Assembly: GCF_000165425.1 (NCBI RefSeq)
Contig: NW_001799177.1
Location: 186,001 to 250,000, forward strand
DNA length: 64,000 bases
Origin: Paramecium tetraurelia
Taxonomy: Eukaryota; Ciliophora; Oligohymenophorea; Peniculida; Parameciidae
Direction: 5' to 3'
Shown: in pieces, positions 1,602 through 31,431 of the stretch
Layout of the letters: each line of letters begins with the position of its first letter
Position numbering within the stretch: position 1 is the stretch's first letter
Position numbers and translations under genes: made by a program
The notes under the pieces: model-generated
Told to the model about the DNA's origin: nothing
The model's input: only the letters and a program-made list of their open reading frames with translations
The model's database searches: none

Positions 1602-3210
1602 TCATTAAAGATAATCAAATTCTTCATCTTCAAAGTTTCTACCAATTATTTTACTATGATATTACAATTAAATTACTCGAAAATTTCAGATTCTAAATAT
1701 TATTATTATTATGATTACTAATTGGCATTGCTATTGCCAAGAGTAAATTATAAAACACTTCTTCCAACTTGCATTTCTATACCATTTAGTTCTGGAATTA
1801 AGGGAATTACACCTTATTGAATGAGAATTAATGTTCCAAACTTAGATTTATTATCGGTTAAATAAATTTATCCATCTATTAATTTAATTGTTCCATGATT
1901 TCTGCTTACTGATATATCGTTCACTCGAATTTCTGTTTCATTTGCTCTGCCTATTTTTAATTCATTAGATCTTGCAAATTTGACTTAACCATTATTATTA
2001 TTTTCAAAAGAAACAATATAGACTCCATTACATTAATTCCATTAAGTATCTTCATTCATGTTGTTTTCTTACATTTCCTATATGATTATCAGATATTTTA
2101 ATACTTCATATCGTTTCTGAGTGATTTCCATCAAAATATATGGGTATTCAGTAGGTTTACTCAATTCTATTAAATCGAATATTCCTTCATCACTTTTGAA
2201 AATGGGTGGATAATTAAATTTACATAATTCACATTCCAAGTTCTTCCACATATAAATGACACAATGATCACTCTATTTTGTTTGGAATTTAGACTTCAAC
2301 CATTTTTTTAAACAGTTAAGATGTATATATTTAATAGAGCCAGTACATTTGCATGGATTTACAAGTGGATTCGATCTGCTATATGCACTACTGCAACAGA
2401 CTCTGCATGTAATGGCATCTGATTAACTAGATTTTGCAGAATCTGAATCTTATCTTTCAATAAAAAGAGAAAGATTACATCAATTATCTTTAATTTAACT
2501 GAATTTCTCTGATCTTAAATTTCACTCTCCCCATCTTTATGACATCCCCTTCCTTTAATTTAATCCCATTGTTGCTCATCATTTACTGGATAGATCTTAC
2601 CACCAGCCACAATTTACTCCCTTTTTCCATCAATTTAGTATTAGTTCTCTAACTCATACTGATTTTTTGATGATGACTGTACTTCTTAATTATGTCATTA
2701 GGTTAATGAAATTCATCCCCCTCCAATTAATCCAGATTTTCCGATTATTAAAAGTCTTTATTATCTCCATGATACTTGGTAGTTTATTCTTACTTGTCGT
2801 CTTCATAATTTTATTTACATTCTCCTCTTTTATTTATTATACTGAAAATTCCTTCATTTTTATCAATTCTGAATAGAATCTGTTCCTATTTAATTACACT
2901 CTTATTCCAATCTACATCATCATCGATCCATTATAATTCGTTATTATTTTTAATTAAGTACCCTCCCTTACTTATCTTTTATAATTAATCCATTTACTTA
3001 AAAGTTCTACTCTTTTAAATGACTCTAGTTTTCATAATCAAAAAGTGAAAATGATTCTTTCTGCCAAGTCTTTATCTTTATGAACAAATCTTTGGCTGCT
3101 CCTTCTTAATTATTAACCCTATAATCATCATTTGTAGCAATTTCTTGTATATGTAGATTGGAATTGATTGGATCAGATTCACAAAATTTACGACACTGGC
3201 AACTTCCCAT
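1602..3210 (-). CDS. RING-CH (RINGv) protein with C-terminal FHA domain
   Basis: This is a predicted E3 ubiquitin ligase with a phosphopeptide-binding domain. Three introns (22, 25, 23 nt) give 512 residues exactly. An N-terminal half with an FHA-like ending ([16 protein letters not shown]) is followed by a C4HC3 RING-CH finger ([30 protein letters not shown]). A clear FHA domain follows, with the core GR (KIGRAN), SRNHGTIKL and DNKSKFGTL. The C-terminus is acidic ([11 protein letters not shown]). There is no transmembrane segment, unlike MARCH-type RING-CH ligases. MGSCQC at the start could be an N-myristoylation and palmitoylation signal. A paralogue with the same layout lies at 29995-31431. 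Ligase activity is inferred from the family; targets are unknown. Confidence 0.8.
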
Positions 3211-3246
3211 TATAAATAATATATTAATTAATATAAAATATGATAT

Positions 3247-4041
3247 TCAAACAATCAGAGCAAACCAACTTAAAAACAAATAGAATAAAATCACTGGGTA
3301 AAGTGCTAATATTCTTTTCTATTCTGGAATTAATAATTTCATGAATCCTACCGCAGCTATAAAATAAATTTCAGTAATCTTACAGTAAGTGGACCATAGA
3401 AAACATCCAATAACCAAAAACATCTTCAAATAAAAGAACTAAAAGAATAAAGTAAATAATGCTCCTAAATTTATTGGAAATACACAATATCCCAGAACAC
3501 AAACTGATTGGAAAAATGATCTTAATTTTATTTTTATATTTACACTTTTCCACCCAATAATTAAGCATTTAGAGTAACCACAAAGGATCCAACCCAAATA
3601 AGTACAAATATTGTTGCAAATATTCCTGGGCCATCATCATTATTACCGCTCAAACTTAGGGTTCTAAATGTCAAACTAAAATATACAATGCAAGCATCAA
3701 ACAAAATACTAATGGTCCCCACAAATCCCCTAGTAATATTAAAAAAATTCATTTACAATTTCTGAGTTCTCTAGCATTATCAGTTGACATTGTAGGTACC
3801 AAAACGCATCTCAATTTTATTCCTATTTATCTCAAATCTCGAAGCTATGTTTTAAATTTAGATGTACTAATGTGACTGCTACGCTTTCTTCTAGTGTGCT
3901 AGAAACTTGAATGTCAGTTTGTTTAATTTATATTTCTTACTATTATACTTAGACTTAGTTCACTTAATTCACCTAAGGCTAAAGATTTATTATTCCTTAT
4001 ATGGAGTTATTGGCTTAATTTTCTTAAACTTCAAATTCCAT
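3247..4041 (-). CDS. YIPF6: YIPF6-like Yip1-domain membrane protein
   Basis: Yip1-family proteins are multi-pass ER/Golgi membrane proteins that act with Rab GTPases in vesicle traffic. Four introns (23, 27, 23, 23 nt) give exactly 232 residues. The family signature is clear: ELRNWDLWGPLVFCL, then FVLIWVGSFVVTLNAQLLGG, FFQSVCVLGYCVFPIN and a last hydrophobic segment near YPVILFYLFLSWFALIV, making about five membrane segments. The N-terminus is a Gln-rich cytosolic tail. The start at 4041 is chosen because the conserved RDLRQIGIKL block lies upstream of the nearest internal Met. The match to the YIPF6 subfamily is strong by motif; localisation is inferred. Confidence 0.88.
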
Positions 4042-4681
4042 TTTTTTTATAGATATAAATTATATATATTCAATATTATCCAAAAATTTCTTCTTTAATC
4101 GGAAGATTCTGAACTTATATATAATTAAGTAATTTTATCCTTAGGTTGATAGATTTATTATTAAGGCAAGGCCCCTCGATAACCATAAATGTTATGCAGA
4201 TCCTAATTCTTTTTTTCTTAATTTACCTTAAGTTATCAACTTCAAGTGATTTCATTTGTGTATCTAATTATGTAGAATTCTTATCTAATAATCTATTTCT
4301 TGTGATAACCCTAATAAATGTTGGTGTATACCCCAAATTAAAATAGCATAATTAGCAGAAAAAAATTTTATATCAGCATTTGTAGTTCTACTTTTTTTAT
4401 TTTATCGTCTCTATTTTTTAGGTAATAAATGATACACATTTAATAATTTTAATCTATTAAATTGAAAAATTTGGTTTCGGTTGTATTATATTAATGAAGA
4501 GTATGCTATGCTTTATTAATTATTAAATTTTATCAGAATTCTTTGTTGATTTGAGTTTTATTTCACTTTCTTCAAGATTTTAATCAAAAAATTATAATTT
4601 CAATTGAATCAATAATACATTTTAAAGTTTAGTTTACAGAATTTTCAAGCAATAATATACTAAAGATCATTAAAATAATAA
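4042..4681. other. Intergenic between divergent genes
   Basis: This is the divergent promoter region between YIPF6 and the next plus-strand gene. A hydrophobic open frame at 4146-4346 (+) has no ATG start and no recognisable motif, so I do not call it a gene. Confidence 0.5.
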
Positions 4682-5611
4682 ATGAATAATGTTTTAAAAC
4701 ATAGGTTATTCACATCACCAGATTATAGTTATTAAAAAAAGGACGATGAAGATGAACTAATCAACCCTATGGTTGACTCATTTTTTTCATAAAAATCTTA
4801 AAATACCTTGAAATCAAATTCTAGTCCACCAAAAAATATTAAATTAATTCTCAGAAGTGATAAGAAAACCTAATATATTAAACCATAACAATATTAAGTA
4901 CAAAGAGACTGTTTAGATATCAAATCAAAATAAGAAAAAAAATATTAGCAGTTAGACTGCCTTATTCCCTAAATTAAATTAGTTTAAAGGAATGAGAAAC
5001 AACGTCGAATTGAATGCTTCAATGGTGAAGAGGTAACAATAGATCAAAAGATTTACTTCAATAAATGCCATGAAATTAGGAACATTTATTATATGACATC
5101 AATTGGGTATAAGTTGGGTATTGAAGAAGTAGAAGTTGAAAAAGAACCTTAAATATAAAATAGTGTATCCATCTCTGAGAAGATGATAAAATCCATTAGA
5201 GCTAAAAAATAGTTCTAAAAAGCAAAGAATAAGATAACTCACATTAAATTAGTGTCAGAGATTTCAAAGAGTTTTTCAGATGAAACAAAAAGATAAAAAT
5301 TAGATAGAGAACATTCTGATCATATCAATCAATTACTTAATGATCCAAGTGCTATTGTGAAAAGCGAACATCAATTGGGAGAGTTAATTGGTTAAACAAA
5401 AATTGTAACAACATATAAAAATTAAGATAATTATCAAACCTATCAATAACCAAATAACATTATTATAAGAAAAGAGAAAAAGGCAAGCATTCATCTATCG
5501 AAATCGTTAATCATACATGTATTTTGTACTATAGGAATTCTGATATTAATTGTCATATTGGCATATGCAAAAACTATAAATGGATTCCATTAATAGAATG
5601 AAGATTTATGA
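4682..5611 (+). CDS. Unknown protein with one C-terminal membrane anchor
   Basis: This intronless gene encodes 309 residues. The protein is polar and rich in Lys, Gln, Asn and Ser for about 275 residues. It ends in a single hydrophobic segment (SLIIHVFCTIGILILIVILA) followed by a short polar tail, so it should be tail-anchored with the bulk in the cytosol. No domain is recognised. Tail-anchored proteins of this shape include SNAREs and membrane adaptors, but no heptad pattern typical of a SNARE is evident. Start is the first ATG after an AT-rich spacer; stop is TGA. Confidence 0.7.
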
Positions 5612-5692
5612 AATTTATTTTTTTCTTTTGTTTAATATGAGAAATCATAAATATTTTAATTAAAAGTATTATCAATAAGAAATTGTTCAATA

Positions 5693-6418
5693 ATGAATAC
5701 ATTAAATAACATGACCAATCCTTATAACATGCCATCTATGCCATATGGAGGTATTTTAGATCCAGATGGCTGCAGAATGCTTGCTAGAAAAATCTTTTAG
5801 ACTTATGATAGTATAAAAAAGGAAAATTTAATATAAAAGTCTCCAAAAAAGGATATATAGATGTTGTTGATGTTGGATCCATGTTTACAGATGCATACAG
5901 AGCGTAGAATATCACGATCAAGCCTAAAGTCAATGAGACGAATGGTTTTCTGAGAGCAATTAATAGTATGAATATCTGATTGATGGTTAGAGAGTGCTTA
6001 GAATAGAGTTACATTACAAGATGTGGAGTAGTATTGTTTGAAGAAATTTTGCGGTACTTCTTATTAGTTCAAATAACAACAATCAGCCAACAAGTTGATA
6101 TTTAAATAACAATAGACAACCTAATTATATTGAAGAGAGACTCGAAGTGGCAAGAAGTCTTTTCAAGAAGCTTGACGCAGACGGCTCTGGGTACATAACT
6201 GAAGATGAGGTTTATGAGATAATTCGTGAAACATACAGATAGATGGGTATTTGTAATATGTGAGGGTAGGAATGAAATATGAGCCTACTGTTGATGATGT
6301 CCGAAGTTGGATTCATATGACTGATTCGGATGGGGATGGGAAAGTTACTTTAGAGGATTATGAAAACTTGGTGTTGAAGTCATTGCAACAATAAGCGATT
6401 TCATATAATCTAAGTTGA
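5693..6418 (+). CDS. EF-hand calcium-binding protein
   Basis: Four introns (29, 25, 22, 23 nt) give exactly 208 residues. Three EF-hand-type loops are visible: a degenerate one near the N-terminus (DISKKGYIDVVD), a canonical one in the middle (DADGSGYITEDE) and a canonical one near the end (TDSDGDGKVTLEDY). The N-terminus is rich in Met, Pro and Asn. It could be a calmodulin-like sensor or a ciliary EF-hand protein; the sequence does not say which. The third intron appears to start with GTT rather than GTA, a less certain boundary. Confidence 0.75.
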
Positions 6419-6439
6419 TTTATTATTTTTATTAATAAT

Positions 6440-8758
6440 ATGGATAATTAAGAATAGGTTTTAATAGTTAACTATACTTAATTATAATCTGTTCAATCCT
6501 AATTCGAGTCTATTAATGAATAACTGGCTAAGCTCATTCCAAAAGTATTAAATCATTATAAACTAGAAAAAATACAAACAAATATATGCATTACTGTCAA
6601 AATTCTTTGATCGTTATGATCATTCTAGTTAAATTCATTTGAATGACAAAATTCACTTTTAAAATATTCTGCTCAAAGCTTTAAATAAGATCTATTAAAA
6701 ATGTATGCTAAAGGATATGTCTCGTAAAAATATTATCGACATTAAAATATGGAAATAGAAAATAGCTAAATACTTGGAAATCTATCCTGTTCTTATATCT
6801 AAACTTACTTCCAATTTCGACATGATCTAAATTGAAACTAAACATAGTTTAAGAGACTAAATTAGGAACTCCATGTTGAAGGATAAATTACAATAGCAAA
6901 TTCATATCACAAATAATAATGCGAAACTCAAACTGAACTAAATAGTGACTAATTTCTCTTTAGAATAAGAATATGACAGTTATTTATAAAATATTATGGT
7001 TTCTTTCAGACTTTTAAGTTATTAGGATATCAAGCCATAAGAAAAAGGCAGATATGCAAAATTGTCATTTGATATCAGCAAAATCTTACTTCAGGGAAAA
7101 GGAAAAAGAGCCTCTAAATTATCTCAGTACATTTTATGTGCTACTAACTTATTAATTAAAAGTTTTGAAAATAATAATGATATGGCTCAGGAAATTTTAG
7201 AAGAAGTCAATAGTTCAATTACAATTAATTATTTAACATATTTAGTATAGTAATTAGAGGCCAATAACGATTTTAAAAGAAAACTCAAATGTAAATGGAA
7301 ATTCATGAAATTATTAAAACCATTAACTTGGTTTTGGATGCAATCTATCTATTATTATCAATCCATTTTTAAATTTGAAAAATGCTAGGCCATTATGACA
7401 CTACTAAAATGGCTAAGTTTTTATTATCTTCTTCAGAATGATGAACTAGCAAACTATATTCAAAATGTGTCCTCATTGACATATTCTAAATACAAAGAAT
7501 TAATTATATTCAATTCAGTAATAGAAGCCGTTTGTTTAGATGATGATGTGGGAATGCCAAGATTAAAGAAATTGATGAGAGATAATTAAGAATAGAATCA
7601 AGAGAAATAGTAATATAAACAATCAGTCAATTATTATTATAATGTGAATGATAAGAACACCTCATTTTAACCAGAATTTTATTATTGCACTCCTTAGATC
7701 AAAGCATTGGCTTAACAAAAAAAGAATACTGATGCACCATTTATCGATATCCCTGTTGAAAATCTGAGTTCTATGGACACTCGTCAATCTAGCAAAACTT
7801 TGAAGTGTCCAAAAAGATTAAATACATCATTTAATTTGAATGTATAAAAGTCTTTTCGTGGATCAATATCATAATTCTCGACAAGTTTCTCAGAGAAGAA
7901 GAATTAGTCAATGTGTGCCAATAGTCAATAAGTGCAATAAATCTAGCAAAATACAGTTCCTATGCTTGATAAAATGATTAAAAAACTGATCGAAGAGAAA
8001 ATAGTTCTTGATAATATAGAGTAATTTATTATTCCATAAATATTAGGGATAAGAAATCTCAATCACAGTAATTACTAAGTAAAGAGAAGCTCTAATAAAA
8101 GGAGAATGATTTCTACAAAAAGCTATTGAAATACAAGACATAATTTTCAAAATTCGTCTCTCCAGTCAAAATGAAATCAAATTAAGAAGTCATTACAAAA
8201 TAAGATTTATAAATGAGAGTTATTGATAGACAAACATTAGTTGATTCTAAGAACTCCTAAACTATTACATTTTAAACAAAACAGAACGATTAGGATACAT
8301 CGTTGTTATCCTTTGAAAAGCCTGGAGCTTCATTAGGCCCACTATAAAAATTGAAGAAAATCATCTTTAAGCATCCTGAAGTGTTTTCCCTTCAAAAATT
8401 AAGGAACAAACTTAAGTCGTCCAAAAAATGGTACAATAAAGCAAATGCAACTCGAATATCGAATACAAGTATATATCTGCATAAGACATATATAGGAAGA
8501 TCAATAATGTCGTAAAAATCAAAGGATCACATAACTACAGATTTGAATTAATTAAGAGATAGATCATAGACGCAATTAAGGAAGAAACTTAGCGAAACTT
8601 AATTTCAATTGGAAGCAGTGGAGAAGGAAATGAGGAGTTATAGTGTTAAAATAAAGTATTCTAGATAAAATGCGGATTAACCTTTGCAGCTCGACAATAA
8701 ATATCAAATATTAAGTAGATCTATAATAAAATAAGAGATGAGTAAAAAATAAATTTGA
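6440..8758 (+). CDS. Unknown long, basic, partly helical protein
   Basis: I do not recognise the family. Two introns (22 and 26 nt) give exactly 756 residues. The first 350 residues look helical and contain a hydrophobic and aromatic patch (LKPLTWFWMQSIYYYQS). The rest is polar, Lys/Gln/Ser-rich and probably partly disordered, with likely coiled coil near the end (LETQFQLEAVEKEM-like spacing). There is no signal peptide or membrane segment. It lies between an EF-hand gene and the E2F gene, all on the plus strand, but nothing shows co-transcription. Confidence 0.65.
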
Positions 8759-8838
8759 TATATTTTATTGATATTTTTCCTAATTTTTTGGAATTTGAAT
8801 TTGAATATAATAATTAGCGGAAAAATATTTTTCAAAAG

Positions 8839-10039
8839 ATGGAAGAAGATCAAAGTATATATATATATAATGTTCATTAGACTTAGTCTCATTATCATTA
8901 CTCAATGATGAGTAGGATTAGAAATTGTTAGAAAAAATATCTAGCAAGAGTAAAAAAATTTTCAAAATTGTATACCCAAATAAGTATTTATAATGCCTAG
9001 TATTCTTTAGTAAACAATTAATCAAATACAAGATCTATAATAGAAAGGAAAAAAGTTTGGAGGAATTGAGTAAGAAATTTGTACGATGTCTGATTGATTA
9101 TGATGAGAAAATTATCTGCTTGGATTAAATCACCGAAGAGTTGGGTATTGTATTATACAAACTTAGGTGTTGAAAGAAGGAGAATTTATGATATAATTAA
9201 TATACTCGAAAGCTTGTAAGTAGTGAAAAGAAAATGCAAAAATTAATATAGTTGGAGTGGATTCAAAACTATTTATTCAACAATAGAACAAGTATTTTAT
9301 TATATATATATATTTAATAGTATGCCAATAAATAAGTTCATTTCGACATAACTTCGCATAAAAGAGAGAAATCCTTAGAAGTACTCTCAGCTGGGTTTAT
9401 TAAGTTGTTTATGTAACAAAAATCCATTTGGACTTTGGAAGAAGCTGCTAAATATCTCGGAAATGAAGTTGATCAAAATAAATTGAAAACAAAAGTGAGA
9501 AGACTGTATGATATTGCTAATGTCTTAAAGTCTATTGGTTTAATCAAGAAAACTCATTTAGTTTCATCCAAAAAACCTGCATTTTAATGGGTTGGTAAGG
9601 AAGGGTTAAAAGTATTTCAATACAATTTAAAATAACACGAATTAAAAAACTAAGCTTAAGAGAGCAAGGAGAATATAGTTAATGTACCTACTCCTTAAGT
9701 TTAAACTGTGAGTAAACCAGACAGTTTTAATTCCTATAATTCATATGTTGGCAAATGCATAGATCTGCTCATCTAATAACAATTGAATGATAGAAAATAA
9801 TAAACTGAATAAAAAATTAAAGAGCAGAATTAAAATCAAGTCACAGTTATAACTCCAAAACTAAGAAAAACATACACAATTATTGTAAAATATAAAGTTT
9901 AATTTAGCCACTCAGAGTCACAACTCCAAAAAAGGCTTTGCAGATCACTCCGAAAAAAAACCATTCTAATAGTCACACTCCTAATAACAATAAAACTGTA
10001 GTTGGTTCTCTTATTGGGAAGTTTAATTAAAACATATGA
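8839..10039 (+). CDS. E2F7/8-like: Atypical E2F transcription factor with two DNA-binding domains
   Basis: E2F factors control cell-cycle genes. Classical E2F/DP proteins have one winged-helix domain, whereas E2F7/8 (DEL in plants) have two and bind DNA without DP. Here the first domain shows [12 protein letters not shown], then [16 protein letters not shown] and [14 protein letters not shown]. The second shows [12 protein letters not shown], then [20 protein letters not shown] and AFQWVG. Both carry the RRxYDIxNVL recognition-helix motif. Four introns (35, 22, 29, 23 nt) give 363 residues exactly. No leucine-zipper, marked-box or Rb-binding tail is seen, which fits the atypical class. The first intron, and so the first 45 residues, is the least certain part. 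Confidence 0.85.
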
Positions 10040-10104
10040 TTCTTTTTAGAGATCTATATTTTTCATTAAATTATTTATCATAATACTCTTCTCTGTCTTT
10101 TCTA

Positions 10105-11800
10105 ATGAGGAGAGATCTTAGTACTTAATAAAGTTAGTAAACTGTTGAAAACATTCCCTAGATAGGAACTACGTAATGTCATTTTCATATTTAGATTTCG
10201 GTTTGAGCAGGCCAATTAAGTTTTGAGCTCTGTATTGCTGTCCAATTCTATTTATGCAATAGCAGTTTTACTATTCAGTTTTCAATTGAGTTTTGACGGT
10301 AATCTGCTATCTGTTATTTATTGTATTGATTCAAAATTGTTGTTGCAATTGATACATTAGCTCTATTTTTATCGAATATTCCTACATTTTAACATGTATG
10401 ACAGTCATATTAATTAATTAGAACAGAAAAACACACATTACTAAGATTAATATCAACATTAGTTGAAGGTTCTTATTTACTTGTACTTAATTTATATTAG
10501 ATATCGGGGACTAGAGATTTACTATTACTTTCAAACATATTTCCATTATTAAATATATTTCTATCTGTGATTTTAAAGTTGAATGAAGGAAATTAATACT
10601 TTAAACAATCAATATCATAAATCAATTTGTTTCATGTTTTTAGAAATATTGCTTTATTTATAATTTCAATATTCTTAAGCCTAAAACTTGAAGGATACTT
10701 CGATATATAATGGTTATATGCATTGTGGATGTTTTGGATACTATTTGGGATATCAGCATCTATTGTAATTTATTACATTTTTGTGGTTTTGGCATTAGGA
10801 ATCCAAAGTGTATTAGAACAAAATAGTAGACTAAAAAATTTAGGTTTAAGATTTGTCTATATTCTTAGTTATTATAAACTTCTGGATATTGTTCTTTATG
10901 ATATCGAATACATCCATGCTCCTTTTGATTCCCATATCAATACTAAACTTCCATAACTTAGGAAATTACGGAAACATTATTGACACATCAAGGATTATTC
11001 TAATTATTAACCAAGTCGTCTTTTCTTATTTTACAGTGAGATTTAAACCTGAAATGGTATTCAGCTTATAATCTTATTTATCCTTGAACGATTCTGTTAA
11101 TCCCCTCAACACTCTACCTACTTAACAAGGAGAAATTTAACTCTAATAATTCAACAATAAAGACTTTGGGGAAAGTCGAGTATCAGAGCCCCAAGTGCAT
11201 ATTCCAAAAATAGTAAAGAGAATATCAAAAACTTATTTTGGATTTGAGGATCTACCTACAGATAAAAAGTCTGAGACTTAACTGTCTAGTAAGAAACCCT
11301 CTCATCACAAAGCATTATCATCATAAATATAAAGATGTTCTGATGATCAAAATGAAAAAATCAAATTGTCATCCTTAATTAACATTAAGTTGAGTGGAAG
11401 GCAAAGGAGCATTGCAGATTTAGAAAACAATTCATAAGATATTAAACAAGTACTGTGTATAATTATTTCTGTTTTAGTAAGTTAATGTGCCAAGCTCGAT
11501 CTCTTTATCATCTATTAATTCTTGTTGCATCTGTTTTGAAAATGAACCTAATGCATTATTTATGTAATGTGGCCATGGAGGAGTCTGCTATAATTGTGCC
11601 ATAGACTTGTGGAAAAATAAAGAGGAATGCTATTTATGTCGTAGTGTAATTATGCTCTTAATATTTAGAAAATTGAAAGAGTCTTATAAATCAAAATGAG
11701 TGAATAACAAAAAAATATTTATCAAGTTGTTGCTGCTACTGAATTGAATTAGAAACTAAAATTAGAACAAAAAACCTATACATAGAACTTATAATAATGA
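10105..11800 (+). CDS. Polytopic membrane protein with a RING finger near the C-terminus
   Basis: This is probably a membrane-bound E3 ubiquitin ligase. Five introns (22, 26, 34, 28, 23 nt) give 520 residues. Several hydrophobic segments lie in the first 300 residues. A charged cytosolic region follows, then a C3HC4-type RING (CCICFENEPNALFMQCGHGG, CYNCAIDLW, CYLCRS) at about residues 425-470 and a short polar tail. The RING resembles that of the MUL1/IAP type (H in the CGHGG turn). Whether it acts in ER, endosome or plasma membrane cannot be told. The intron splitting the RING end removes an otherwise early, poorly conserved tail. Confidence 0.75.
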
Positions 11801-12075
11801 GTTACTGACTTAAATCTATTGAATTTAATCAAAATTTTTTTTCTTTTTATTTTTCTATTAACATTAAATGTCAATTTATAATAAATTTGACCTTTTTAAT
11901 GCTATTAATCAATCAATATCATTTTCAAATAATTTATTTATACAGTCTTATTATTGAATATGCAATATTGCTAATTTCTATGGAAGTGCATTGTATTTAT
12001 TTCTTAAAACTACAAAATGAAATTTACTCAATAAAAGATCAATCTTAATTTTATAAATTAAAAACGTAAATAGTA

Positions 12076-14745: not shown

Positions 14746-15936
14746 TCATTCATAGTTTAATTTAACTTTTTGTTTGTGATAATAGTTTGTCCAAGCCCCT
14801 CCATTGTTAGAGTAATAATCCATAGGATAGATTTGTTTCCAATCAGCCTCCCCCAACATAACATATGTTTCATATGGAGTTAACAAAGGTTTCTAGAATT
14901 ACACTCCCCAGTCGATCGACAGTCTTGGACAAGCAATTTATATGAAGATATCAACCTCGTTCAATTAATTTAGTTGTTCGAAATTGATTTCACTTATCAA
15001 AAGAGTAAAATATTGTATCTAATGCTTTTTCAACAATTCTTCAATTCTCTACAAAATCTAAGTGCTCCCTTGTCTTCCAAGTGTGCTCATAATGATGCAT
15101 GCTAATTAAGGTTACATTTTCTGGCATTGCACAATTTATTAATATCTCAAATTCATCATTTTTGGATTGTCGTACTTTTCTATAGTAAGTCGATAAGTGT
15201 ATGGATCATATTAGAAGAATTCAAATTGTGGATTTTGAATCATGGTTGACTCCATATGAAATCTACCATCACATACAAAGATGACTATATTTCTACTATC
15301 TTAAGATACCTCTAATTTAGGGGAAGTGCATCCCAAGACTTCACCTGAAGATCTAGGTTTTTCTTAGGGAATTGCAATTTTATAACCATCCTCCTCTAAT
15401 TATTTCTTGAGTAAGTGGATATAAGTATTAAATTGAATTGTACCCATTAGATAGTATTTGATATTCTTATCAGTGAAATTCTTTTAGATGGTTTCAAATA
15501 AGTGTTTAGTGTCAATGTTAATTTCCACAAAAACATACAAGGTTTTAACTGCACATTCATTAATTGGAACCAAACAACTGTGACCATAATGAATTATGTA
15601 ATCAGCTTGCATTTCATCTGCGGTCAAATCATCAATGCAACAAGCTCCATATGTGACATCTCCACTTATAAAGGTTTCACAACCAGTAAATGTTGTTAGA
15701 ATATCTGATATCATGCAAGAATATAGTAATAGTCCTTCTGGAAATTACAAATTGATTAAGATGTTTTGTCTTTACAGTCTCTCTTGAGTCTCAATAATTC
15801 TGCTGATTGTCTTATGAATTTCAAAATTGTAATGTTTGGGTAACTAACTTATTGCATTATTCAAGGCTTAATTGTTTAATATGTATTCTGGTATTTGATT
15901 TAAGAGTTTAGGTTTGTTCTAAACATTTTAGATCAT
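14746..15936 (-). CDS. DPH1: Diphthamide synthesis protein DPH1 (radical Fe-S enzyme subunit)
   Basis: With DPH2, DPH1 transfers a 3-amino-3-carboxypropyl group from S-adenosylmethionine to a histidine of elongation factor 2, the first step of diphthamide synthesis. The gene is intronless, 396 residues. Family blocks are obvious: [53 protein letters not shown] and [14 protein letters not shown]. The three cysteines expected to hold the 4Fe-4S cluster can be placed in YGACC, VLGCTSP and IACPR. The start at 15936 keeps the conserved N-terminal IPE...LN region. Identification is firm; DPH1 rather than DPH2 is favoured by the intact first Cys motif. Confidence 0.93.
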
Positions 15937-16030
15937 TAATAAATAATTTAATATTCTAAGAAAAATGTGCATCATAAGACTATACAATATTCTAACACAT
16001 TTAATATATTTTAATATTTATGATGATATC

Positions 16031-17108
<1,078 letters not shown>

Positions 17109-19291: not shown

Positions 19292-19349
19292 TATTTTATT
19301 ATTATAGATAATAATAATAATTATTAATATGAATAGATTATAACAAGTA

Positions 19350-20116: not shown

Positions 20117-20149
20117 CTCTTTGTATTTAAATTATAATTTAATAAACAA

Positions 20150-20416
20150 TCATATTAATTTTTATTCATCTATACGAATTTTCCATTATAGAATCTCCTC
20201 AGTAGTTCTACCAAATTGTTTATTTGCAACATGCTACTTTAATAATGCATAGGTTGATCCTTTCCTTACTACCTAACATATGCACAATTAGCCTATTGCT
20301 GAAATAAGGAATGCAATTTATGGTTAAAATAATTTACAGCCACATTGTTTATTATTTTTGATTTATCCATAAAAAATATACCTCTAACCATTAAATAGCT
20401 GAAGTTTAATATTCAT
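20150..20416 (-). CDS. Small predicted membrane protein (88 aa)
   Basis: This intronless frame from ATG to TGA encodes 88 residues. It has one hydrophobic segment (CGCKLFQPQIAFLISAIGQL) and a basic C-terminal half (VRKGSTYALLKQHVANKQFG, TTEEILQWKIRIDEQKLI). The other two frames are less protein-like. No family is recognised; size and composition would suit a mitochondrial or ER small membrane protein. It lies 33 bases upstream of the Rab gene start on the same strand. Confidence 0.55.
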
Positions 20417-21156
20417 TAGATTCTATCAATTAGTTCTACTAATTCAAATTAAACACATTCAAATAGTAATTTTATAAGAAAACTCTCAAAATTTTTTGAT
20501 TATTTTGTGAATAGTTTCAATAATTTTATACCTAATTTTTTTTAGATTTATTAGAGATGGGCAATCTATTTTTAAGGTTATTCAAATCTTAAATAAAAAA
20601 AGTATAATTGATTTTTTTAGCATCTTCCTTCCTTTTTAAGATTTTTAAATTCTTAATTTCTATATTCATCTAATTTGTTTAAATAATAATCATAATTTAA
20701 TTGTCGTTCATTTATAGATATATCTATCACATTTTAGAACGACTTTTTTTGATCCTTTTGCATTTTATAATAAATTCTTCTTGAAAATGAAAAAGTTCAT
20801 AAACATTTTTGATTTAATCTTCTATAACAAACCTTCTTTAACGAATTCTAATAGTTGAGCGTTATGATTTATCAATAAGTTTGATTTGTCTATTATTTTA
20901 TAATGCAAATGATAAAGGATATTCTTAAATTATAATATTAAGCCGGTTGGCTGTCATAGCAAAATTATTTTTAAGTAGAAATTTAGGAATGTTAATAAAA
21001 TCTGAGATTTGTGATTATAAAAATATATTTAATAATTAGTTGAAAGTAGAAAATTGTAGATGATGTTGATGTTATAAAGATATAGTATTATATTTAGCGA
21101 AATACAAAATAAAAGGTTGGGGAAATATAAATTAAATTTAATTAATTTGTGGTTGA
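20417..21156. other. Intergenic between divergent genes
   Basis: This is AT-rich sequence with T-runs. I see no gene or RNA. It should hold the promoters of the 88-aa gene and of the plus-strand gene at 21157. Confidence 0.5.
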
Positions 21157-22530
21157 ATGTCTATTACAGTTGAAGATTTGGCAGCTAATATCGAGACAGT
21201 GTTGGCCTCTTTGGGTGATGAAAAAATGTATTCTTGTCTTCATCTTGTAGGGTCAACTGGGAAGTGGTTGAGCAGACCGAACATAACCTAATGAAACATT
21301 TTGATTAACTATTTGAGAGATTATACACCCTCAAAGATTCATTATAAAGAGTTTTCTTAATAAACATCAAAAATTTGAGATAATACGATGCTAAGGATTT
21401 GGTCTAAAAGGTTAAAGATAAGAAACTAGAACCTATTGTATTAAAATCACTCACTCAATATGCCTTTAAAAATGATAAGGATGAATTATTACTTAATCCA
21501 TCTCTCATTAAAGGATAAGTGAATAGTATTGTATTACCTTGGGTCGGTAATAACTTATCAGTGACTGACAAAATTAAAGAAACCAATGAATGGCTTGATT
21601 CAAAATTAGCTGAATTAGAAGTCTTCAAACCCAAAGAAACCTAAGAATCTCATAAAACCTTAGATGTGCAACCAAAAAATGAAGGAAACGATAAAAGTAT
21701 CATAATTTATTCTAATCATAAGACAATTACACATTCAAGAGTGACAAATTAAACGAAATTGCTTCATAAATTTAAACTATGCACATCCCAAACACCAATA
21801 ACATGATTAGCATTAAGACATACACTTAAATAGTTGAAGGCAGTGTTGAATTGGCTGAACCTGAATTTATTAGAATTACTTTAGAAAACAGAAAGGCCAG
21901 AAGGGAAGTCCTTTATTCTGATGGAGCTAAATATGTTCAATTATTGTTGGATTATGTTAACGATATTGAAAATCTTTTGATGAAGGCATAAGAAGAAATT
22001 TGCAAGAAAATTGATATTTCACAATAAACACTCGAACAAAGCGAAATGTTGTTAATGGAAAGAGGACTTGGATAACATGTATTCATGTTACAAGCTTCAG
22101 CAAGATAAAGAATCAAGGACAAACTACCAAAGTAGAAGTAGGTTTAGATGAATGCAACAAAAGAAATCATCAGATATCAAATCAAATTGTTAAATGAGAA
22201 ACAAGATTTCTTGAAGAATATGATTGACAAATTGCCTACAAACTACGAATCTGGATAATTGGTTCCAATGGTATTAAATTTAGTTATGGGAGATATGATA
22301 TTCGAAGAACATAGCTATGAAGAAGAAGACTATATTTCAAATCTTGAAAATCCATGTACAATATTCCCTCTATTTTAGAATTATTCTAAGATCCAGATAT
22401 GATGGAATTACTAAAGTCAATTGAAACTGGAGTTGTTTAATTATTGGGAAAAACTGCATTTGCATAACCCCCAGGCGGTATGATGGGCAACATTCCTCCA
22501 CAAATGTTATAGAAATAATAATAATAGTGA
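21157..22530 (+). CDS. Unknown mostly helical protein with Gln-rich tail
   Basis: Three introns (23, 26, 23 nt) give exactly 433 residues. The protein is helical throughout and starts MSITVEDLAANIETVLASLG. It has long amphipathic stretches (DYVNDIENLLMKAQEEICKK) and ends with a Gly/Pro/Met patch and five glutamines. There is no membrane segment or catalytic motif. Codon use and spacing match the neighbours. I do not recognise the family; a structural or ciliary role is only a guess from the coiled-coil-like composition. Confidence 0.65.
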
Positions 22531-22646
22531 TAAACGTAAATTTTACATATATAAAATAAATTTATCAACATTGTCTTTAATTTAGTGTTTTAAAATTAAA
22601 TTCAAAACAAAATAAACGTAATAATTATATTTCAAAATTTGTTTGA

Positions 22647-24076
22647 ATGAGTTAATCAAATCCAAGTCACAATTATTATTCGCAAGGTGTATCAGATAAA
22701 TTCAAGCCTCCTTTCAATTAAAAATTACTCAAAGAAAAAATTAATGAATTACAGAATGCTATTCAAAGAACAGAAAAAGAATATAATTAAGCAAATCAAA
22801 TAAGTGATAAGACAAATAGTAAGGCTAAATAATCATTAAATTCGTTCGATAGGACCTAAAATTAAAAAGATTCATAGATTGAAAACCTAATTGTTGAAAA
22901 TCAAATTCTAGTTAAAGCCATTTAAAAATTAGAAACTAAGGTCAAGAACTAAGTTTAATTATAAAATGAAAATCAAACCCTTAAACAAAATGTTGAAGAC
23001 ATAAAATCAGAAAATGAGTTATTAAAATAAAAAAAAACGTTAAAAAATGATAGCAAATTATCATCTGATGCTGCCCTAGGAATTTTAGCAGCAAAAAGAA
23101 GCTAAGAAATCTAAATATTAACTAATGAAGTCAAAGAAACAAAATAGAAAAATCAAAACCTCTAAGGAAAATTAGATAAACTCATTTTAGAGAATTAGCA
23201 CTTGTAGTCTATAATCAAAAATTCAGAGAACTAATAATTGAGATCTGATTCATAGAATAATTCAATTAAAAAAAATAATTTTGTTGAAAAGCATTCTGAT
23301 TAAAATTAAACTAAATAAAATGAGCAAATATTTTAACTCTAGTTAGAACTAGATGATGCAAAAAAAACAATAACACAACTACAAAAATTAAATAAAGCAA
23401 ATCATTATACATAATAATCATCTAATTATAAATTTAGTAATTCTAATGATAAGATATCAAAAAGTTAATCTTTAGAACCATCTCATTTTGATAAAGATAA
23501 GAGGATGAAAGAGCTAGAAGAAAAGATAAAAAAGCTATAATTTGAAAAGGATAGCCAACTTTATACTACAAAATTAGAATGTGCACAGGATTTGAAATAG
23601 TTTCAAGAGAAATTGAAATAGGAGTACAATTAAAAATAGTAATTTGAAAATGATTACGACAAGCCAACTTAAGATAAAGTAAAGAAATTGAGTGCTGAAA
23701 ACACTAAATTTCAAATAATGCTTGAAAGATAGAATAAGGAAATCATGAATATGGAGAGAAAATTTACTGGTATGCATATAATATTTATACATCTTTAGAA
23801 TTATTAATGTAAAAGGAAGAACTTTAATAAAATTTGTTGAAAGAACAACAGTTTTAAGGGTATCTTAAATAGGAAAAGTCTTTGTTACAAAATTCATTGA
23901 AAGAAAAAGATAAAGAAATCAGTGAGCTTAAGGATGATATCATCAAACTTTCAAAGGAAAGACAATAATTAAAAGATCAAATAGAGAAGCTAAAATTTGA
24001 AGTCAAAATGAGTTAAATTAAAAGCAGTAATAGACCTCAAAGTCATCAAAGTGAAACTAGTAAAAGGAACAGATGA
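22647..24076 (+). CDS. Coiled-coil protein
   Basis: One intron (29 nt) gives exactly 466 residues. Almost the whole protein is predicted coiled coil, rich in Lys, Glu, Gln and Asn (for example KDKEISELKDDIIKLSKERQ). The first 30 residues and the Ser-rich C-terminus (SSNRPQSHQSETSKRN) are polar and likely disordered. It gives no clue to partner or location; comparable ciliate proteins are basal-body, axonemal or cytoskeletal. Confidence 0.7.
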
Positions 24077-24196
24077 TTATTATTATTTAATATTGGTATT
24101 CTATTAAGTTCTTATATTTAATTCTAAATCTATCTTGATTCTCTGTTAAAATTGGATGAAAGTGATTTATAAATTGTTAATTTGATTATTTTTATA

Positions 24197-26136
24197 ATGA
24201 GAATATTAATTGTTAATGGATATGGAAAATCAGAAACTGGTAAACAATAATTTGAAAGATATTGTGGATAAATACGAAAAGTAAGCATTATAAATATCAT
24301 ATAGTTATTCTTGAATTAGAAGGAATTATTGGATACAGAGACAGAATTTTTTTCTAGAGATGCAAATGATTTGGATGAATTCCTTTACGATTAAGACTCT
24401 GGTTATTCTAAATAAGAAGCAGCAAACTAATTTAATTTTATAGATTTTGTTTTCATAGAAATAGATGCCAACCTTAGACCATGGTCGAAGCATTTAAAAA
24501 AAGTAAATGTCTAATTCTCATATTAGGTTATGATATTAATTAGAATGTGCTTAAGAACTAATAAAGTTTTATTAGCTACAGCTGGAGCAATGCAAGCATT
24601 GGTTTTTTTTGTAGCCACAAACTTAGAAACTGTAAGAATAAGTTTATATTGTTAGCCAGTTGAGGTGGTAAATGGTCCATAGGGCGGACCTCTTGGTGAT
24701 ATGAGCAAACTTTCAAAGTCCCTTGATTAAATGACAAAGCATGAATATTTTTTGGACAGCATAACAGGTGATCTCTACGGGATCTACTTCGATAAGGTAG
24801 AATCAGCTAATTGTTGGATTCCCATAGCGAATTGTGGTATACACTCTAGAAGAGCTGTTGAAGAGTTCAATACAGTTGGAAAGTACATGTTGCAGGCTCC
24901 TGTTTATAAACCCTAAAAAATAAAGGAAATTTATGGACTTTATACATCTACATAGGATGAGGAAATATGCTTGATAAAAAAGAACTTCGTTTAAAATTAC
25001 TTATTTAAGGATGTTATGTAAGAATTTTTAGTTCATTCTAAACATGCATGGGACATCCATCCATTCAATGTATTGAATCCAAAGAAGACATTTGTTATTT
25101 TAGCAGATTCATCAAAAGGACCTCAAGTTATTACAGTAAATGAAAACATTGTTGGTTTATAATTTGATATTAATCCAAAATATCCAGAAACACAATTAAT
25201 TCTTAGAAACTTCATTATCCATTATTTGATTTAAATACGATCTTGTGTTAATAAACCATTAACTATCTAATAAGCTAATAATGATTTAAGAAAGAACAAG
25301 TTAGATTTAGAGAACATGACTAAATAATAAGCAGAAAGCCAATAAAAGGGTGAAAGAACAGTTTTTAATTTTGAAGTGCTAACTAAATTTAAGCATGTGG
25401 GATTTACAGGTAAAAAGGCAAAGAAATTGGAGATTGTTATGAATAATGCTATTAATGATCAAGGACAATTACAAGAGGCCATGAAAACAATGAGATAGAA
25501 GTAGTCTCCAAGGACTAAGCAATCAACAGAGGAGACTGATCTAGAAAAGTCTAAGTTTGCTAAGTTTTCAACCAAATTGAATCATGAACATAGGGATACA
25601 ACTGAGAAGTTCAATAAAACAGCTGCTGAAATTAGATAGATGTTGCATCCCAATATAGATGAATAATTATTGCCTGAAAATGAGCCTTTGTGGGTATCTA
25701 TTAGGTATTCAATATTTTATAGGTGCCTGGAACTATGAATACTTCAATGTTGGCTAGCACTGGATAGAGGATTAGATAAAGGCCCTAATCTACAACTTAA
25801 AGTCGTACTTTTAAATTGACCAGAGTTCAAACTGCAAAATCTAGAGTTTCAAAGGGTAATACTACTAAGGAGGACTATGATTTATGCAGAGAACACCCAA
25901 TAGTCAGATGCTCTTCTCCTTATATTACAAATATAGAGAGGGATAGGTTGGAGTAGAGATAAAAAGACAAATAAATAATTGGACCTAGAAGCATTAGGAC
26001 AAGTGTTGTGAGCACAATCAAAGGGGGGACTCCCTTTATTTTGTATGACAATCCATATAGCAATCCGGCAGATTTCAAACACAGGGACGAAAACAAGTCT
26101 AGGTGGGTAGGTGGTCAGAATTTCAGAGTTTGTTGA
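24197..26136 (+). CDS. Unknown protein with N-terminal GATase1-like domain
   Basis: Three introns (24, 24, 29 nt) give exactly 620 residues. The first 180 residues look like a class I glutamine-amidotransferase-like alpha/beta fold. There is an opening strand MRILIVNGYG, a strand FIDFVFIEID and RPWSKHLKKVMILIRMC. The turn NKVLLATAGAMQALVFF sits where the nucleophile elbow would be, but it has Ala instead of Cys, so it is probably non-enzymatic. A beta-rich middle (FVILADSSKGPQVITVNE) follows, then a basic tail ending SNPADFKHRDENKSRWVGG, a style seen in flagella-associated proteins. The fold assignment is inference from pattern only. Confidence 0.65.
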
Positions 26137-26155
26137 TTATAACTATAATATTATA

Positions 26156-27751
26156 ATGGATTAAAAAAAAAGTCTGAGTGATTTGAAACAAGCATTGGCT
26201 TATCGCAATAGAAGCAAAGATATTATTGATGTAATTGCAAAGGGAGTTCAAGATATTAAATTCTTCAAAGAAAAATAGTAGTTATTTGATCCAGCATTAT
26301 ATTGTTAAATGCTTAAAAAGATCTAATTGAAAGAATTCAAAAAGGGAGAAGTCATATTTCATTATGGTAACATCATTTTGATAGGTAGGTTCTAATAATG
26401 TTGAATAGTTTTATGTAATTCTCCAGGGTTAGGTTGCAATTTTGTGTCCAAATGATAAAAGCATTACTCACCAATAGGTTATCGAAGAGTACAAGAAAGG
26501 AATAGATTCTAATCCGTAATAACTGAGGAGATAATCGGCCATCTACAGTCCTCGATTGTCCGCCTTCAATAATAGAGCCCTAAAAGATATAATTATGGCA
26601 CAGGCTTATGGGCAATTTTTTAGGAATCAGTAATTATTCAATTATATAGTTGATTTTTTGTAGATATTCAAAAAGTCGATTAAGAATCCTTAATTGAAGA
26701 ATACACTAATAATCCCAACCAAATATCAGTAGATAAATGGTTGGATAATTTGGTGAAAAGACTCTTCCCAAGTTTACACATAGTTAATATGTGTTGTAGT
26801 GGCGACTAATTTGGAGAAATCGCTCTTATTGGTAATGTGACTAGAACAGCAACTGTCTTGTGTACTCAGGATACATTAATGATAACGTTAGCCAATCCAG
26901 ACTTTCAAGCCATTTTATAATAATATCATGATCAGGTTAAAAATGAAAAGATTTCTCTACTCAGAAATTTTGAACTCTTTAGCAAATTATCTGATAAAAG
27001 ACTTAGAGGTATTTTGGAAAATATTATTGTTTAAAAACCTTCGATGTTTAGTGTGATTTATATGGAGAATTCTATTCCAGAATACATCTATTTTATTAAA
27101 CAAGGAGAAATCGAATTACTCAAGGTATTTCCTAAGAATAAAACAGTCTCAATTACTTTACTTTAAATAGGTTGTGTCTTTGGACATGAAGAAGTTCAGC
27201 AATCCATACCTAGAGAATACAGAGCTATTTCAAAATCATCTCAGTGCGAACTATATTTATTACCAGTTGAAACTATACAATAATTTGACAAGAAAAACTC
27301 ATAATCTGTTGAAAAGAAATTCCATCATGAAAGATTGGAAAGGTTATTAAGTGATAAAAAATCTTAGAAAACTAGCTCATAAATACCTTAAACCTCTATT
27401 GAATTGTATAAAACAGTCTTTGAAAAAGACTATTCAAGTCTTTTCAGTCATGCTTTACTTTAAAAAAGGTACTATTTTATGCTACTTAGAATCATATCAC
27501 CTAAACATAGAAAAATGTTATCAGAACCATTTACTCCTTTCTTTGATATAGATAAGAAATCTTTCTCTTCCAAAAAGCAATTAACAGATAGGAAAACTAT
27601 TAACACCACTACAACAAGATATAATAAAGAAAACTCCACAAGACAATTCAGTACATAAACTACAATTAATATACACAGACACTTATTCAGTCCTAAAGTC
27701 AGTAAAAGACAACTAGACACCATCATGCCCTTCAAAAAAATTTTATAATGA
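26156..27751 (+). CDS. Protein with two cyclic-nucleotide-binding domains (one frameshift in the sequence)
   Basis: Two cNMP-binding domains are visible. The first has HYGSNNVEQFYVILQGQVAI and a phosphate-binding cassette GDQFGEIALIGNVTRTATV. The second has EYIYFIKQGEIELLKVF and a weaker cassette (GCVFGHEEV) lacking the conserved Arg. There is no membrane segment or kinase domain, so it resembles a PKA-regulatory-like or ciliary CNB protein. Introns of 22 and 21 nt fit. One base is missing for a continuous frame: adding one T to the T-run at 26654-26659 joins the two halves and makes the length divisible by three. This is either an assembly error or a real lesion. Confidence 0.7.
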
Positions 27752-27900
27752 AAAGAACTGGATTTATTTATATCTATGTAAATTATAAATATTGATATCG
27801 AAATTAAATCAAGAAAGATTTTTTAGTATTTTCAATTTTATACTATTACATCAATTCAAATTATTAAAATACTTATGTTTGATAAATTTAAATTATTTCA

Positions 27901-28878
27901 ATGATGAGTAAAAAGAGTGAAAAAAAAAAATTATTGAAGATACAACCTTTGGTTTAAAGAATAAGAACAAAAGTAAATAAGTCCAAAAGTAATTCTATTA
28001 TTGATTTTAGTTTTTATAGGTGAAGCATAATGATGTTTCTTTGACAAAATTACATAAGAAGAATTTGAAAGAAAAAAAGATTAAGTAGTAATTTGAAGAG
28101 GAACAAAGATTGATACAATCCCTATATAAAACAGTGGAAAAAGGAAGAAGAATCTGAGGAGGAAATAAATCCAAAATCAATTCTATATGAATATTACAAA
28201 TAAGGTAGGTTGACATGATAAGGCTAGGACTATGTTAGAAGGGTAAGAAATGCATTTATTCTCATGATATAAGTTTGGAATAAAAATATGCAATACTTGA
28301 TTTATAAACTTTAGCAGATGGAATTTAACTAGGATATATCGGAATAATAAACCTCTTATACGTTTTCTCATTGCGATTACTTTTTGGACGCTTTAGAGAA
28401 AGGCAAATATAGATGAAAATGGAATGAAATGTCATTATAAGGTATGTATTTAGAAAGAAAGAAAGAAAGAAGAACCAAAACAAAGATAAGAAGGCGATCT
28501 AGAAGAAGAAATAGATGAATAAATTTAGTAGTTATAAAAGGGAAGAACTAAAATTATTAAGGAGGTTTTCGAAAAGTGTAAAGAGAGGGCTGAAAGAAAA
28601 AATTGGAAGCTGAAAATAAAAATTAGAAAAAAGGTAGAAAATTAGAAAACTATTTTAGGATCGAAATAATTCGTAAATGACAGGAAGGTCTTTATTTGTT
28701 AACGATCCTAGTTTGTTTATTGATGATGATGAAACAGAGAAAGGTTATGAGAGAGAGGAATAAATAGAAAAAATGATGAGGAAGATGAATAAAACAATAA
28801 ATAAAAATTATATGAAGGGAATGAAATTAATAATAGGATGAAGATGTTGATTAATTATTTAAGTAGTAATAATAATGA
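27901..28878 (+). pseudogene. ZC3H15: Decayed ZC3H15/DFRP1 gene
   Basis: ZC3H15 (DFRP1) is a CCCH zinc-finger partner of the GTPase DRG1. Its family blocks occur in order but in different frames: KKIIEDTTFGLKNKNKSK, NPKSILYEYYKQG, LCQKGKKCIYSHDISLEQKY, CDYFLDALEKGKYR, ERKKEEPKQRQEGDLEEEI, KLEAENKNQKKGRK and SLFVNDPSLFIDDDETEKG. Breaks include one missing A in the A-run at 27920-27931, one extra A near 28140 and loss of residues around the second zinc finger at 28410-28430. More shifts lie near 28600 and 28680. The first Cys of the first CCCH finger is Tyr (TAT, 28186). The number of lesions argues for a pseudogene; a functional copy presumably exists elsewhere. Confidence 0.75.
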
Positions 28879-28887
28879 TTAAAATAT

Positions 28888-29926
28888 TCATTATAATTCA
28901 TTATTTATCTATTCAAGTAATTTATCATTAATTAGAGTTGTTAATGGACTTAATTTGATGTCAGAAACTACTATGTCAGGATTACTCTTTTAAAGTTGAT
29001 TTTTTAGATCGATAATTTGTTGAATGTTAAACAATCCCTCAAATGATATTTTATACTCTGTATTATTATCAAATAAATTTTATGTTTCATTTTCAATCTA
29101 GTCAACACCATTATATGTTTGAACACTATTGAAATAAGAATTATGAAATGTAAAATTAGCAGCTACATCCATTGTCTCTTTTTCTATTCCTATATTAAGT
29201 ATAATATTGAATAAGTATAAAATGTGTTTTCTCTAGATTAATGATAATGTGTATTTAGTCGGAAATTAAGTTGGATTAGTTGGAAATAACACTGACAATG
29301 GAGTTTCAACACCTAAAACTGTAGACTCAATTTGTTTCTATTCTAAAAACTATGATTTCTAAAGTTATTTATTTAAAGCATCCTGTCTTGTGATAAAAAG
29401 ACAATATGGTATTTTCTAATTTGAATATGAAAAAAAAGCCAAAAATAATGCATTTGAAATCATGAAATAATTATTCGGGTTTTGTTTATATTCTTAAAAT
29501 ACATTAGTTAAGGTATAAAATAATTGTGTTTTATTTGAGAGGGTTGATGATGATTTTAGATTTAAAAGGCTCCATTCATTATCAGCAATTTTATTTCTTT
29601 TATCATAAACTTAAAATTGAGCGAAATGTTCTTGAAGTGGCAAAGATTTAAATTTAGTGGTAGAATTAAAAGTTACTTAAGTAACTACTGCGTATTTAGT
29701 TACCCCTTTTTCCATTACTTAACCAAGCTAATCTTTTCTAAATTGATTATTTCAAAATTTACTTTTATTGATTTACTTTTCTAACAGGAGTACGTGGATA
29801 ATAAGATTGAAATATTTGTGAAAAAGAATTCGAATTTGAATTGGGGGATGCGATTGGCTGGATAATATGTTTTGATTTTGGTGTTTAACATTGTGGTTAT
29901 GATGGTTATTATTATTTTTTTTTCAT
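28888..29926 (-). CDS. Unknown protein (337 aa)
   Basis: One 25-nt intron gives 337 residues exactly. The first 50 residues are low-complexity (Gln, Pro, Ser, Asn). The rest looks globular and mixed alpha/beta: TKYAVVTQVTFNSTTKFKSL, then NYFMISNALFLAFFSYSN, YCLFITRQDALNKQLQK and KYTLSLIQRKHILYLFNIIL. The family is not recognised. The start at 29926 is chosen because the intron joins its frame to the long downstream one. It converges with the ZC3H15 pseudogene (9 bases between ends) and lies 68 bases downstream of the RING-CH/FHA gene. Confidence 0.65.
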
Positions 29927-29994
29927 ATAAATCAAATATGAAATTAATATATAAAATATTAAAATAAATCAATGAAATAATACTAACCTTTGTA

Positions 29995-31431
29995 TCATCT
30001 TTCATCGCAGATACTATCTTCCTTAACATCCATATTGGCTTGAGGTTTTTGCGGGTTTTAAGAATTATTAATGATAATATCCCCAGCAGTAAGTTCATCA
30101 TGAGTAACAAATGAATCTTACATTTACTCTTATTGATCTAATTATGGTTTTGTTTCTATTTAAATCAATACTACATTATCAGGATGTTTGTATGCAGGTT
30201 TTTAATTTATTTTTTTTTTTTGAACACATTGTAATAAAACTCTTCCAGTTTAAAATAAGATTGGAGATTTTCCATCTTCTGGTATTACAAGCAAATCTTC
30301 ATCTTGAGCCAAAACCAAAGTTCCGAATTTACTTTTACAATCCTAAACTCTAATTATATAATCTGGATTTTCAGCTGTGTGTTTACTCGTTGGTATCAAT
30401 TTCATCATAGCATGGGATCGAGAAACGGAGATATCCCTCAATTTAATATCACAATCTGGAATTCTACCCTAGATTTATTAGGAATCAATAGTTACAATTT
30501 TCAATTCTGTCTTTTCACCTATTTCAACTACGTAGATCATAGCCTCTTTCGATTTATCATCATTGGTGATTTTGAAAGTTATATAAGAGGATTTTGGCTT
30601 TGGCAATTTGAGAACTGAGTAACTCTTATCTTAAAAGGTGTAAGTATTTCTAAATGTGAACTTGCAAATTTCGCAATCCAATCTTTTACAAAGATATTAG
30701 ATGAAATGTTCACCTTATTTAATTTTTAGTTAAATTCCTATCCATTTTTATAAGCATTCCAAATGAATGTATTTTACTGATCCCTCACATTTACATGGAC
30801 TTATCAAAGGGTTTGTTTCACTTGCCTTACTTGAAAAGCATATTCTGCAACTGGCAACATCACTAATTGTTTAAATATCCTCCTCCTACTCATCTTGATA
30901 CTGGGTTGCCTCATCACAAGTAGGCATGAATGCATATTCTAATAATTGCATCCTTACTCGTCCCAACTTTACTATATCTCCAATTTTTAAATCCAAATGC
31001 TTTATATTTATGAAACATCTTACATCTATCGATTAAAACTAATTGGCCTCTGATTTCAACACTGCCCATAATTTATGATCTTGTTATTAGGATATGCTGT
31101 TAATAAAAGCTTATTATTCGTTTAATGTAATATTTGCTATTTCAATCGAGTTACGAGCCCATTCACTTTTCGTCAAAGCCACAAGTTCCTTATCCACTGT
31201 TGCTAATTGAGCTAAAATAATAGATTTCACTATAAATTACCTGAAAAATCAACCTCTATCTCCTTCACACAATACGAACTGGACTCGAAATCAAATAAGT
31301 TGTGCTAATTCTTCGGCCAAATTATTGCCATTATGTGAACTCTAAACCGTTACTTATAAACTTTACTTATATGGCATCAATGTTCTTACAATCTCATATC
31401 TCTTTTGCTTGGTTGATGTACAAGCTCCCAT
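29995..31431 (-). CDS. RING-CH (RINGv) protein with C-terminal FHA domain, paralogue of 1602-3210
   Basis: Two introns (25 and 29 nt) give exactly 460 residues. The order of elements repeats the gene at 1602-3210. There is an MGxC start (MGACTS), an FHA-like segment ending GDIVKLGRVRMQLLEY, and a C4HC3 RING-CH finger (CRICFSS, SPCKCEGSVKYIHLECLQKW, CEICKF). A clear FHA domain follows (QGRIPDCDIKLRDISVSRSH, CKSKFGTLVLA). No membrane segment is present. FHA domains bind phosphothreonine peptides and RING-CH fingers recruit E2 enzymes, so a phospho-directed soluble ubiquitin ligase is the natural inference. The pair probably stems from duplication. Confidence 0.82.

Follow-up and report, generated by a model that had tools for sequence, protein, structure and literature searches.

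Several ubiquitin ligases carry a phosphothreonine reader and a RING finger in one chain. In CHFR, RNF8 and Dma, the FHA domain comes first and a classical C3HC4 RING comes later, and Pellino has a C-terminal RING-like domain of another type. The RING-CH finger, with C4HC3 ligands, is known from the MARCH proteins, most of which have transmembrane domains after the RING, although MARCH7 and MARCH10 have none (PMC4897099, in excerpt). We analyzed a stretch of 64,000 nucleotides from Paramecium tetraurelia (contig NW_001799177.1, positions 186,001 to 250,000; G000:C155:186001-250000), hereafter the window, and searched the genome of 69.07 Mb in 231 contigs. An original prediction, made from the letters of the window, had placed two paralogous genes for RING-CH ligases with FHA domains at 1602-3210 and 29995-31431, and had set them against MARCH ligases as membrane proteins, which holds for most MARCH proteins but not for MARCH7 and MARCH10. 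Both genes, here called A and B, were borne out as spliced models on the minus strand. We lean slightly towards the reading that A and B encode RING-CH E3 ligases without membrane helices, which would probably be lipid-anchored and guided by phosphorylation.

Both proteins exceed the curated Pfam cut-offs for RINGv (PF12906, 21.6 bits) and FHA (PF00498, 20.7 bits). RINGv scored 45.5 bits in A and 47.4 bits in B, and FHA scored 43.1 and 32.5 bits, respectively. As predicted, both fingers have complete C4HC3 ligand sets and precede the FHA domain. The full C4HC3 pattern was found in 16 of the 17 family models described below, including A and B, the exception being L023, and the eight ligands and the Trp of H-x-x-C-x-x-x-W are invariant in all 11 aligned members. 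In the FHA part, G-R, S-V-S-R-x-H and D-x-x-S-K-F-G-T are invariant in the 11 aligned members. The G-R, S-V-S-R-x-H and S-K-F-G-T elements, which A carries by sequence pattern, occur in all 17 models; 16 were detected by pattern and L026 by reading its sequence, because the pattern required L or I before GR. Against solved structures, the family profile matched the Doa10 RING-CH (2m6m, E 2.1e-12) and a structure named 'cellular modulator of immune recognition' (2d8s, E 7.7e-10), which we take to be MARCH8. Among FHA structures, the profile matched OdhI (E 1.7e-7) and, more weakly, GarA and others, and the FHA of L026 as a single sequence reached E 2.5e-5.

The prediction that the two proteins have no membrane segment agrees with their hydropathy. 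The peak 19-residue Kyte-Doolittle mean is 1.22 in A and 0.78 in B, and these low peaks indicate that neither has a membrane segment. Across the 17 models, some of which are incomplete at one end, the peak ranges from 0.67 to 1.53. We also scanned three frames of one strand, ignoring introns, and no hydrophobic window was found at +200 to +500 nt after the RING in any of the 17 family loci. All 13 examined RINGv loci without FHA have a hydrophobic window (>1.9) at +253 to +274 nt past the RING, which is the MARCH layout. Other hydrophobic windows close to some of the 17 loci fall outside the coding models, whose own values are below 1.6.

The predicted MGxC starts were confirmed in the sequence, as MGSC in A and MGAC in B. 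A start of the MG-x-C or MG-x-x-C type was found in 12 of the 17 family members: MGQC in L002 and L004, MGAC in B, L015 and L011, MGATC in L012 and L024, MGNC in L026, L029 and L030, and MGSC in A and L028. Because these members share ancestry, their starts are not 12 independent events. Such starts are candidate signals for myristoylation, at G2, and palmitoylation, at C4 in A, and the myristoyl transferase prefers Ser or Thr at position 6. The Ser at position 6 of B (MGACTS) fits this rule.

Both genes were translated with genetic code table 6, and their introns are 23 to 31 nt long. Intron 3 of A is 27 nt long in A and 25 nt in its duplicate L028, and intron 4 of B is 27 nt in B and 25 nt in its paralog L011. 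These length differences indicate that both are real introns and not coding inserts. Intron 3 of B has the same length, 24 nt, in each of the three copies compared; it was called from its GTA...AG ends and its divergence. A two-intron model of B with 460 aa, in which the two in-frame introns had been translated, was replaced after comparison with L011. These two introns hold no stop codon; their removal raised the FHA score of B from 28.1 to 32.5 bits and left the GR motif intact (KIGRIPDCD). In-frame, stop-free introns such as these two and intron 3 of A are easily misread as protein, and the lengths in other copies expose two of the three.

At least 54 places in the genome match RINGv. We examined 30 loci; the remaining 24 places lie outside the comparison. 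The order of N-terminal domain, RINGv and FHA was found at 17 of the 30 loci, so the family has at least 17 members (L002, L004, L009-L013, L015-L017, L023, L024 and L026-L030; L013 corresponds to B and L027 to A). A and B are indeed homologous (33% identity over 305 aa, E 8e-47, with B in its first, 460-aa model), but calling them two paralogous genes understated the size of the family. A tree of the region from RINGv to the end placed B together with L015, L011 and L023 (100/100), paired L012 and L024 (100/98), and paired A and L028 (88/86). Good support was obtained for 7 of its 14 inner branches, and several of its branches are long. A and B are 28.4 kb apart on contig C155; on C189, their closest copies, L028 and L015, keep this order and orientation at a distance of 27.5 kb. 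This arrangement is the pattern left by a whole-segment or genome duplication. Against their duplicates L028 and L015, A and B each have a dN/dS ratio of 0.05, and the nine family pairs compared span 0.03 to 0.18; as judged from these sequences, the family is under strong constraint. Domain content and order, metal ligands, lack of membrane helices, at least 17 loci, constraint and a recurrent MG-x-C start are established at the level of sequence.

A B-like copy, L023 (G000:C200:201488-204607), starts with MRAC, and the Cys that serves as seventh RING ligand is replaced by Phe (FEIC). L023 is apparently losing its function. All RING ligands are kept in L011, the copy closest to it, and dN/dS between the two is 0.09.

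The N-terminal domain is conserved through the family in the 11-member alignment, and in most members its last residues form a motif like L-x-x-GD-x-IKLGRV. The original prediction had described an FHA-like segment here, for which we found no sequence support. Up to E 5, Pfam FHA matched the N-terminal domain of none of the 11 members, the best match of the domain profile in the PDB was STAT1 at E 0.15, and a comparison to the FHA domain of the family itself gave a probability of 1.4%. The terminal motif resembles the last strands of an FHA domain and may perhaps be the source of the earlier call. An AlphaFold2 model of the L002 domain (17 rows) had a mean pLDDT of 43, with strands at both ends and one helix, and neither supports nor excludes the fold. 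The domain may still be an FHA degenerated beyond sequence recognition. The rest of the predicted design, a RING-CH finger joined to a phosphothreonine reader in a helix-free protein whose start resembles a lipid-anchor signal, holds up and gains strength from its presence at 17 or more loci.

From these features we infer E3 activity, acylation, binding of phosphothreonine or phosphopeptides, and membrane substrates for the family. In the proposed mechanism, the C4HC3 finger would bind ubiquitin-loaded E2, and the FHA domain downstream of it would bind phosphothreonine on the target or on an adaptor. Ubiquitin would then go onto proteins previously marked by a kinase. The acylated N-terminus would hold the ligase at the membrane, and the N-terminal domain might add target choice or membrane contact. 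The lipid anchor and the phospho-reader would together stand in for the transmembrane helices of most MARCH proteins. A more specific proposal, which we put forward tentatively and consider rather doubtful, is that this is a ciliate equivalent of MARCH without transmembrane helices. It would be a dually acylated RING-CH family whose FHA domain, with a peptide-binding pocket altered by Phe in place of Asn, reads kinase marks on proteins at the membrane, so that the many kinases of a ciliate could bring about the removal of surface or ciliary membrane proteins once these are phosphorylated.

Several observations weigh against a lipid-anchored, phospho-guided ligase or against its novelty. The five most conserved FHA residues are G, R, S, H and N (PMC4238996, in excerpt). 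G, R, S and H are kept in the family, but the canonical Asn of the NG block is replaced by Phe (SKFGT) in all 17 models, and phosphopeptide binding may therefore be altered or lost. The description of a full FHA domain thus stands for the Pfam score and the four kept residues, and is slightly overstated for the fifth. The FHA of B alone found its best solved-structure match at E 0.062 (MDC1), so that the assignment in B rests on Pfam and the family profile. A (MGSCQC) has no Ser or Thr at position 6. No MG-x-C start was found for L009, L010, L016 and L017, whose 5' ends are uncertain, and these four together with L023 indicate that lipid anchoring is not universal; the four may either have no lipid anchor or have a 5' exon that was not recognized. 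As to novelty, MARCH7 and MARCH10 already combine a RING-CH finger with the lack of transmembrane domains. In another alveolate, Plasmodium falciparum, a RING/FHA architecture has already been listed, although what is listed is RING, with RINGv a separate term in the figure (PMC2408969, in excerpt).

The replaced Asn also favors the idea that the FHA domain has lost phosphate reading and serves as a plain protein-binding scaffold, which would make these proteins ordinary helix-free RING-CH ligases like MARCH7 and MARCH10. However, the Arg of GR, the Ser of SxxH and the Arg following that Ser are invariant in all 11 aligned members, which is unlike what is expected of a disused pocket, and we regard this idea as unlikely. 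In a docking study, mutation of the Arg of GR or the Ser of SxxH lost contacts (PMC4238996, in excerpt). Alternatively, the FHA domain might keep phosphothreonine binding but direct it to a site in its own ligase or in a partner ligase, and so control dimerization or activity rather than choose substrates. After the FHA domain, the chain continues in a polar and partly Q-rich tail, about 35 residues long in A and 65 in B, and OdhI and GarA are among the matches of the family profile. Both are self-binding regulators, and some FHA proteins bind their own phosphorylated tails. Yet the alignment between the two tails is poor, and no conserved internal phosphosite was identified; we consider self-binding improbable as well. 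The presence of small introns between or within the two domains in A and B could also mean that a RINGv gene and an FHA gene were wrongly spliced together in the models. L026 and L029 hold both domains in one uninterrupted exon, without a stop or a required intron, which indicates that the fusion is no artefact, and the domain order is repeated at 17 loci. A fusion artefact is thus rejected in this genome, and we give it a negligible probability.

Among the neighbors of A and B in the window, ten stop-to-stop frames were scanned and six had a Pfam match (Table 1). A further RINGv gene of this contig, L019 (G000:C155:173182-176292), lies some 11 kb beyond the window and is MARCH-like, with hydrophobic segments past the RING.

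Table 1. Features of genes A and B and of neighboring frames, in window coordinates unless a contig is named
Feature	Position	Strand	Description	Basis
Gene A	3210-1602	-	5 exons, 500 aa spliced; reads MGSCQC...EFDYLQ-stop	
Gene A introns	2997-2967; 2478-2454; 2104-2078; 1676-1654		31 nt; 25 nt; 27 nt, in frame; 23 nt	
Gene A start, MGSC	3199..3210	-	Candidate N-myristoylation (G2) and palmitoylation (C4) signal	Sequence
Gene A N-terminal conserved domain	2479..3090	-	About aa 41-233; intron 2997-2967 inside	11-member alignment
Gene A RING-CH finger, C4HC3	2222..2407	-	aa 250-311; RINGv match 250-298	Pfam
Gene A FHA core	1826..1957	-	Match aa 391-434; alignment extends domain to about aa 465	Pfam; alignment
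Gene B	31431-29995	-	5 exons, 443 aa spliced; reads MGACTS...DSICDER-stop	
Gene B introns	31366-31342; 31240-31212; 31023-31000; 30495-30469		25 nt; 29 nt; 24 nt, in frame; 27 nt, in frame	
Gene B start, MGAC (MGACTS)	31420..31431	-	Candidate N-myristoylation and palmitoylation signal	Sequence
Gene B RING-CH finger, C4HC3	30664..30849	-	aa 169-230; match at G000:C155:216664-216849	Genome search
Gene B FHA core	30313..30501	-	aa 285-338; intron 30495-30469 crosses core	
Diphthamide synthesis protein	14749-16173	-	360 bits	Pfam
Cyclic-nucleotide-binding domain	26654-27748	+	Two matched stretches	Pfam
PSMD3-like N-terminal TPR repeats	34917-36281	+	28 bits, barely above cut-off 27	Pfam
Calcium-dependent protein kinase, part	45038-46213	+	Kinase domain, then EF hands	Pfam
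PHM7_cyt (cytosolic domain of 10TM putative phosphate transporters)	56136-57866	+	32.6 bits, then sub-threshold anoctamin	Pfam
CFAP58 central coiled coil	60039-61670	-	Ciliary by name	Pfam

No description of a protein or family with both RING-CH and FHA was found among the matches listed in the open-access literature, mostly titles and abstract beginnings. The combination appears to be a new assembly of known parts, and it may perhaps already be annotated in ciliate databases. One scan of viral contigs gave 30 pattern matches and no relatives, and one scan of prokaryotic contigs gave 21 pattern matches and no relative with both domains; neither scan bears on other eukaryotes. The prokaryotic scan gave one relative in the FHA region only, a stretch on a bacterial metagenome-assembled genome (MAG) contig (L031:4780-5046) that is FHA-like and 32% identical to the FHA region of the family.

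The family resembles MARCH and Doa10 in its C4HC3 finger with the conserved Trp and in the best solved-structure matches of its profile. It differs from most MARCH proteins in having no transmembrane domains, an FHA domain instead, and a lipid-anchor-like start in most members. In MARCH7 and MARCH10, the RING-CH finger is nearer the C-terminus (following a disordered region in the case of MARCH7), and the source mentions no FHA domain in them (PMC4897099, in excerpt). Unlike in CHFR, RNF8 and Dma, where the FHA domain is followed by a C3HC4 RING, the RING-CH finger of the family precedes the FHA domain. Pellino shares the presence of an FHA domain and a RING finger, but its FHA domain is N-terminal and atypical, with wing inserts; it binds phosphorylated MDC1 and recruits the E3 (PMC11884936, in excerpt). 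ZNRF2, an E3 of the RING type, is attached to membranes through an N-myristoyl group, and its G2A mutant loses partners; it differs from the family in having a UBZ domain with its RING, and no FHA domain is mentioned in the source (PMC4889327, in excerpt). By analogy, ZNRF2 may serve as a precedent for a RING E3 placed by a myristoyl group, and Pellino for FHA-guided recruitment of an E3. If the proposed function is true, a RING-CH finger is not bound to transmembrane helices for finding its targets, and at least 17 loci in one ciliate offer a testable system for phospho-triggered ubiquitination. Phospho-guided ubiquitination of the kind known from RNF8, CHFR and Pellino would then have arisen with another finger, in another order and with a lipid anchor.

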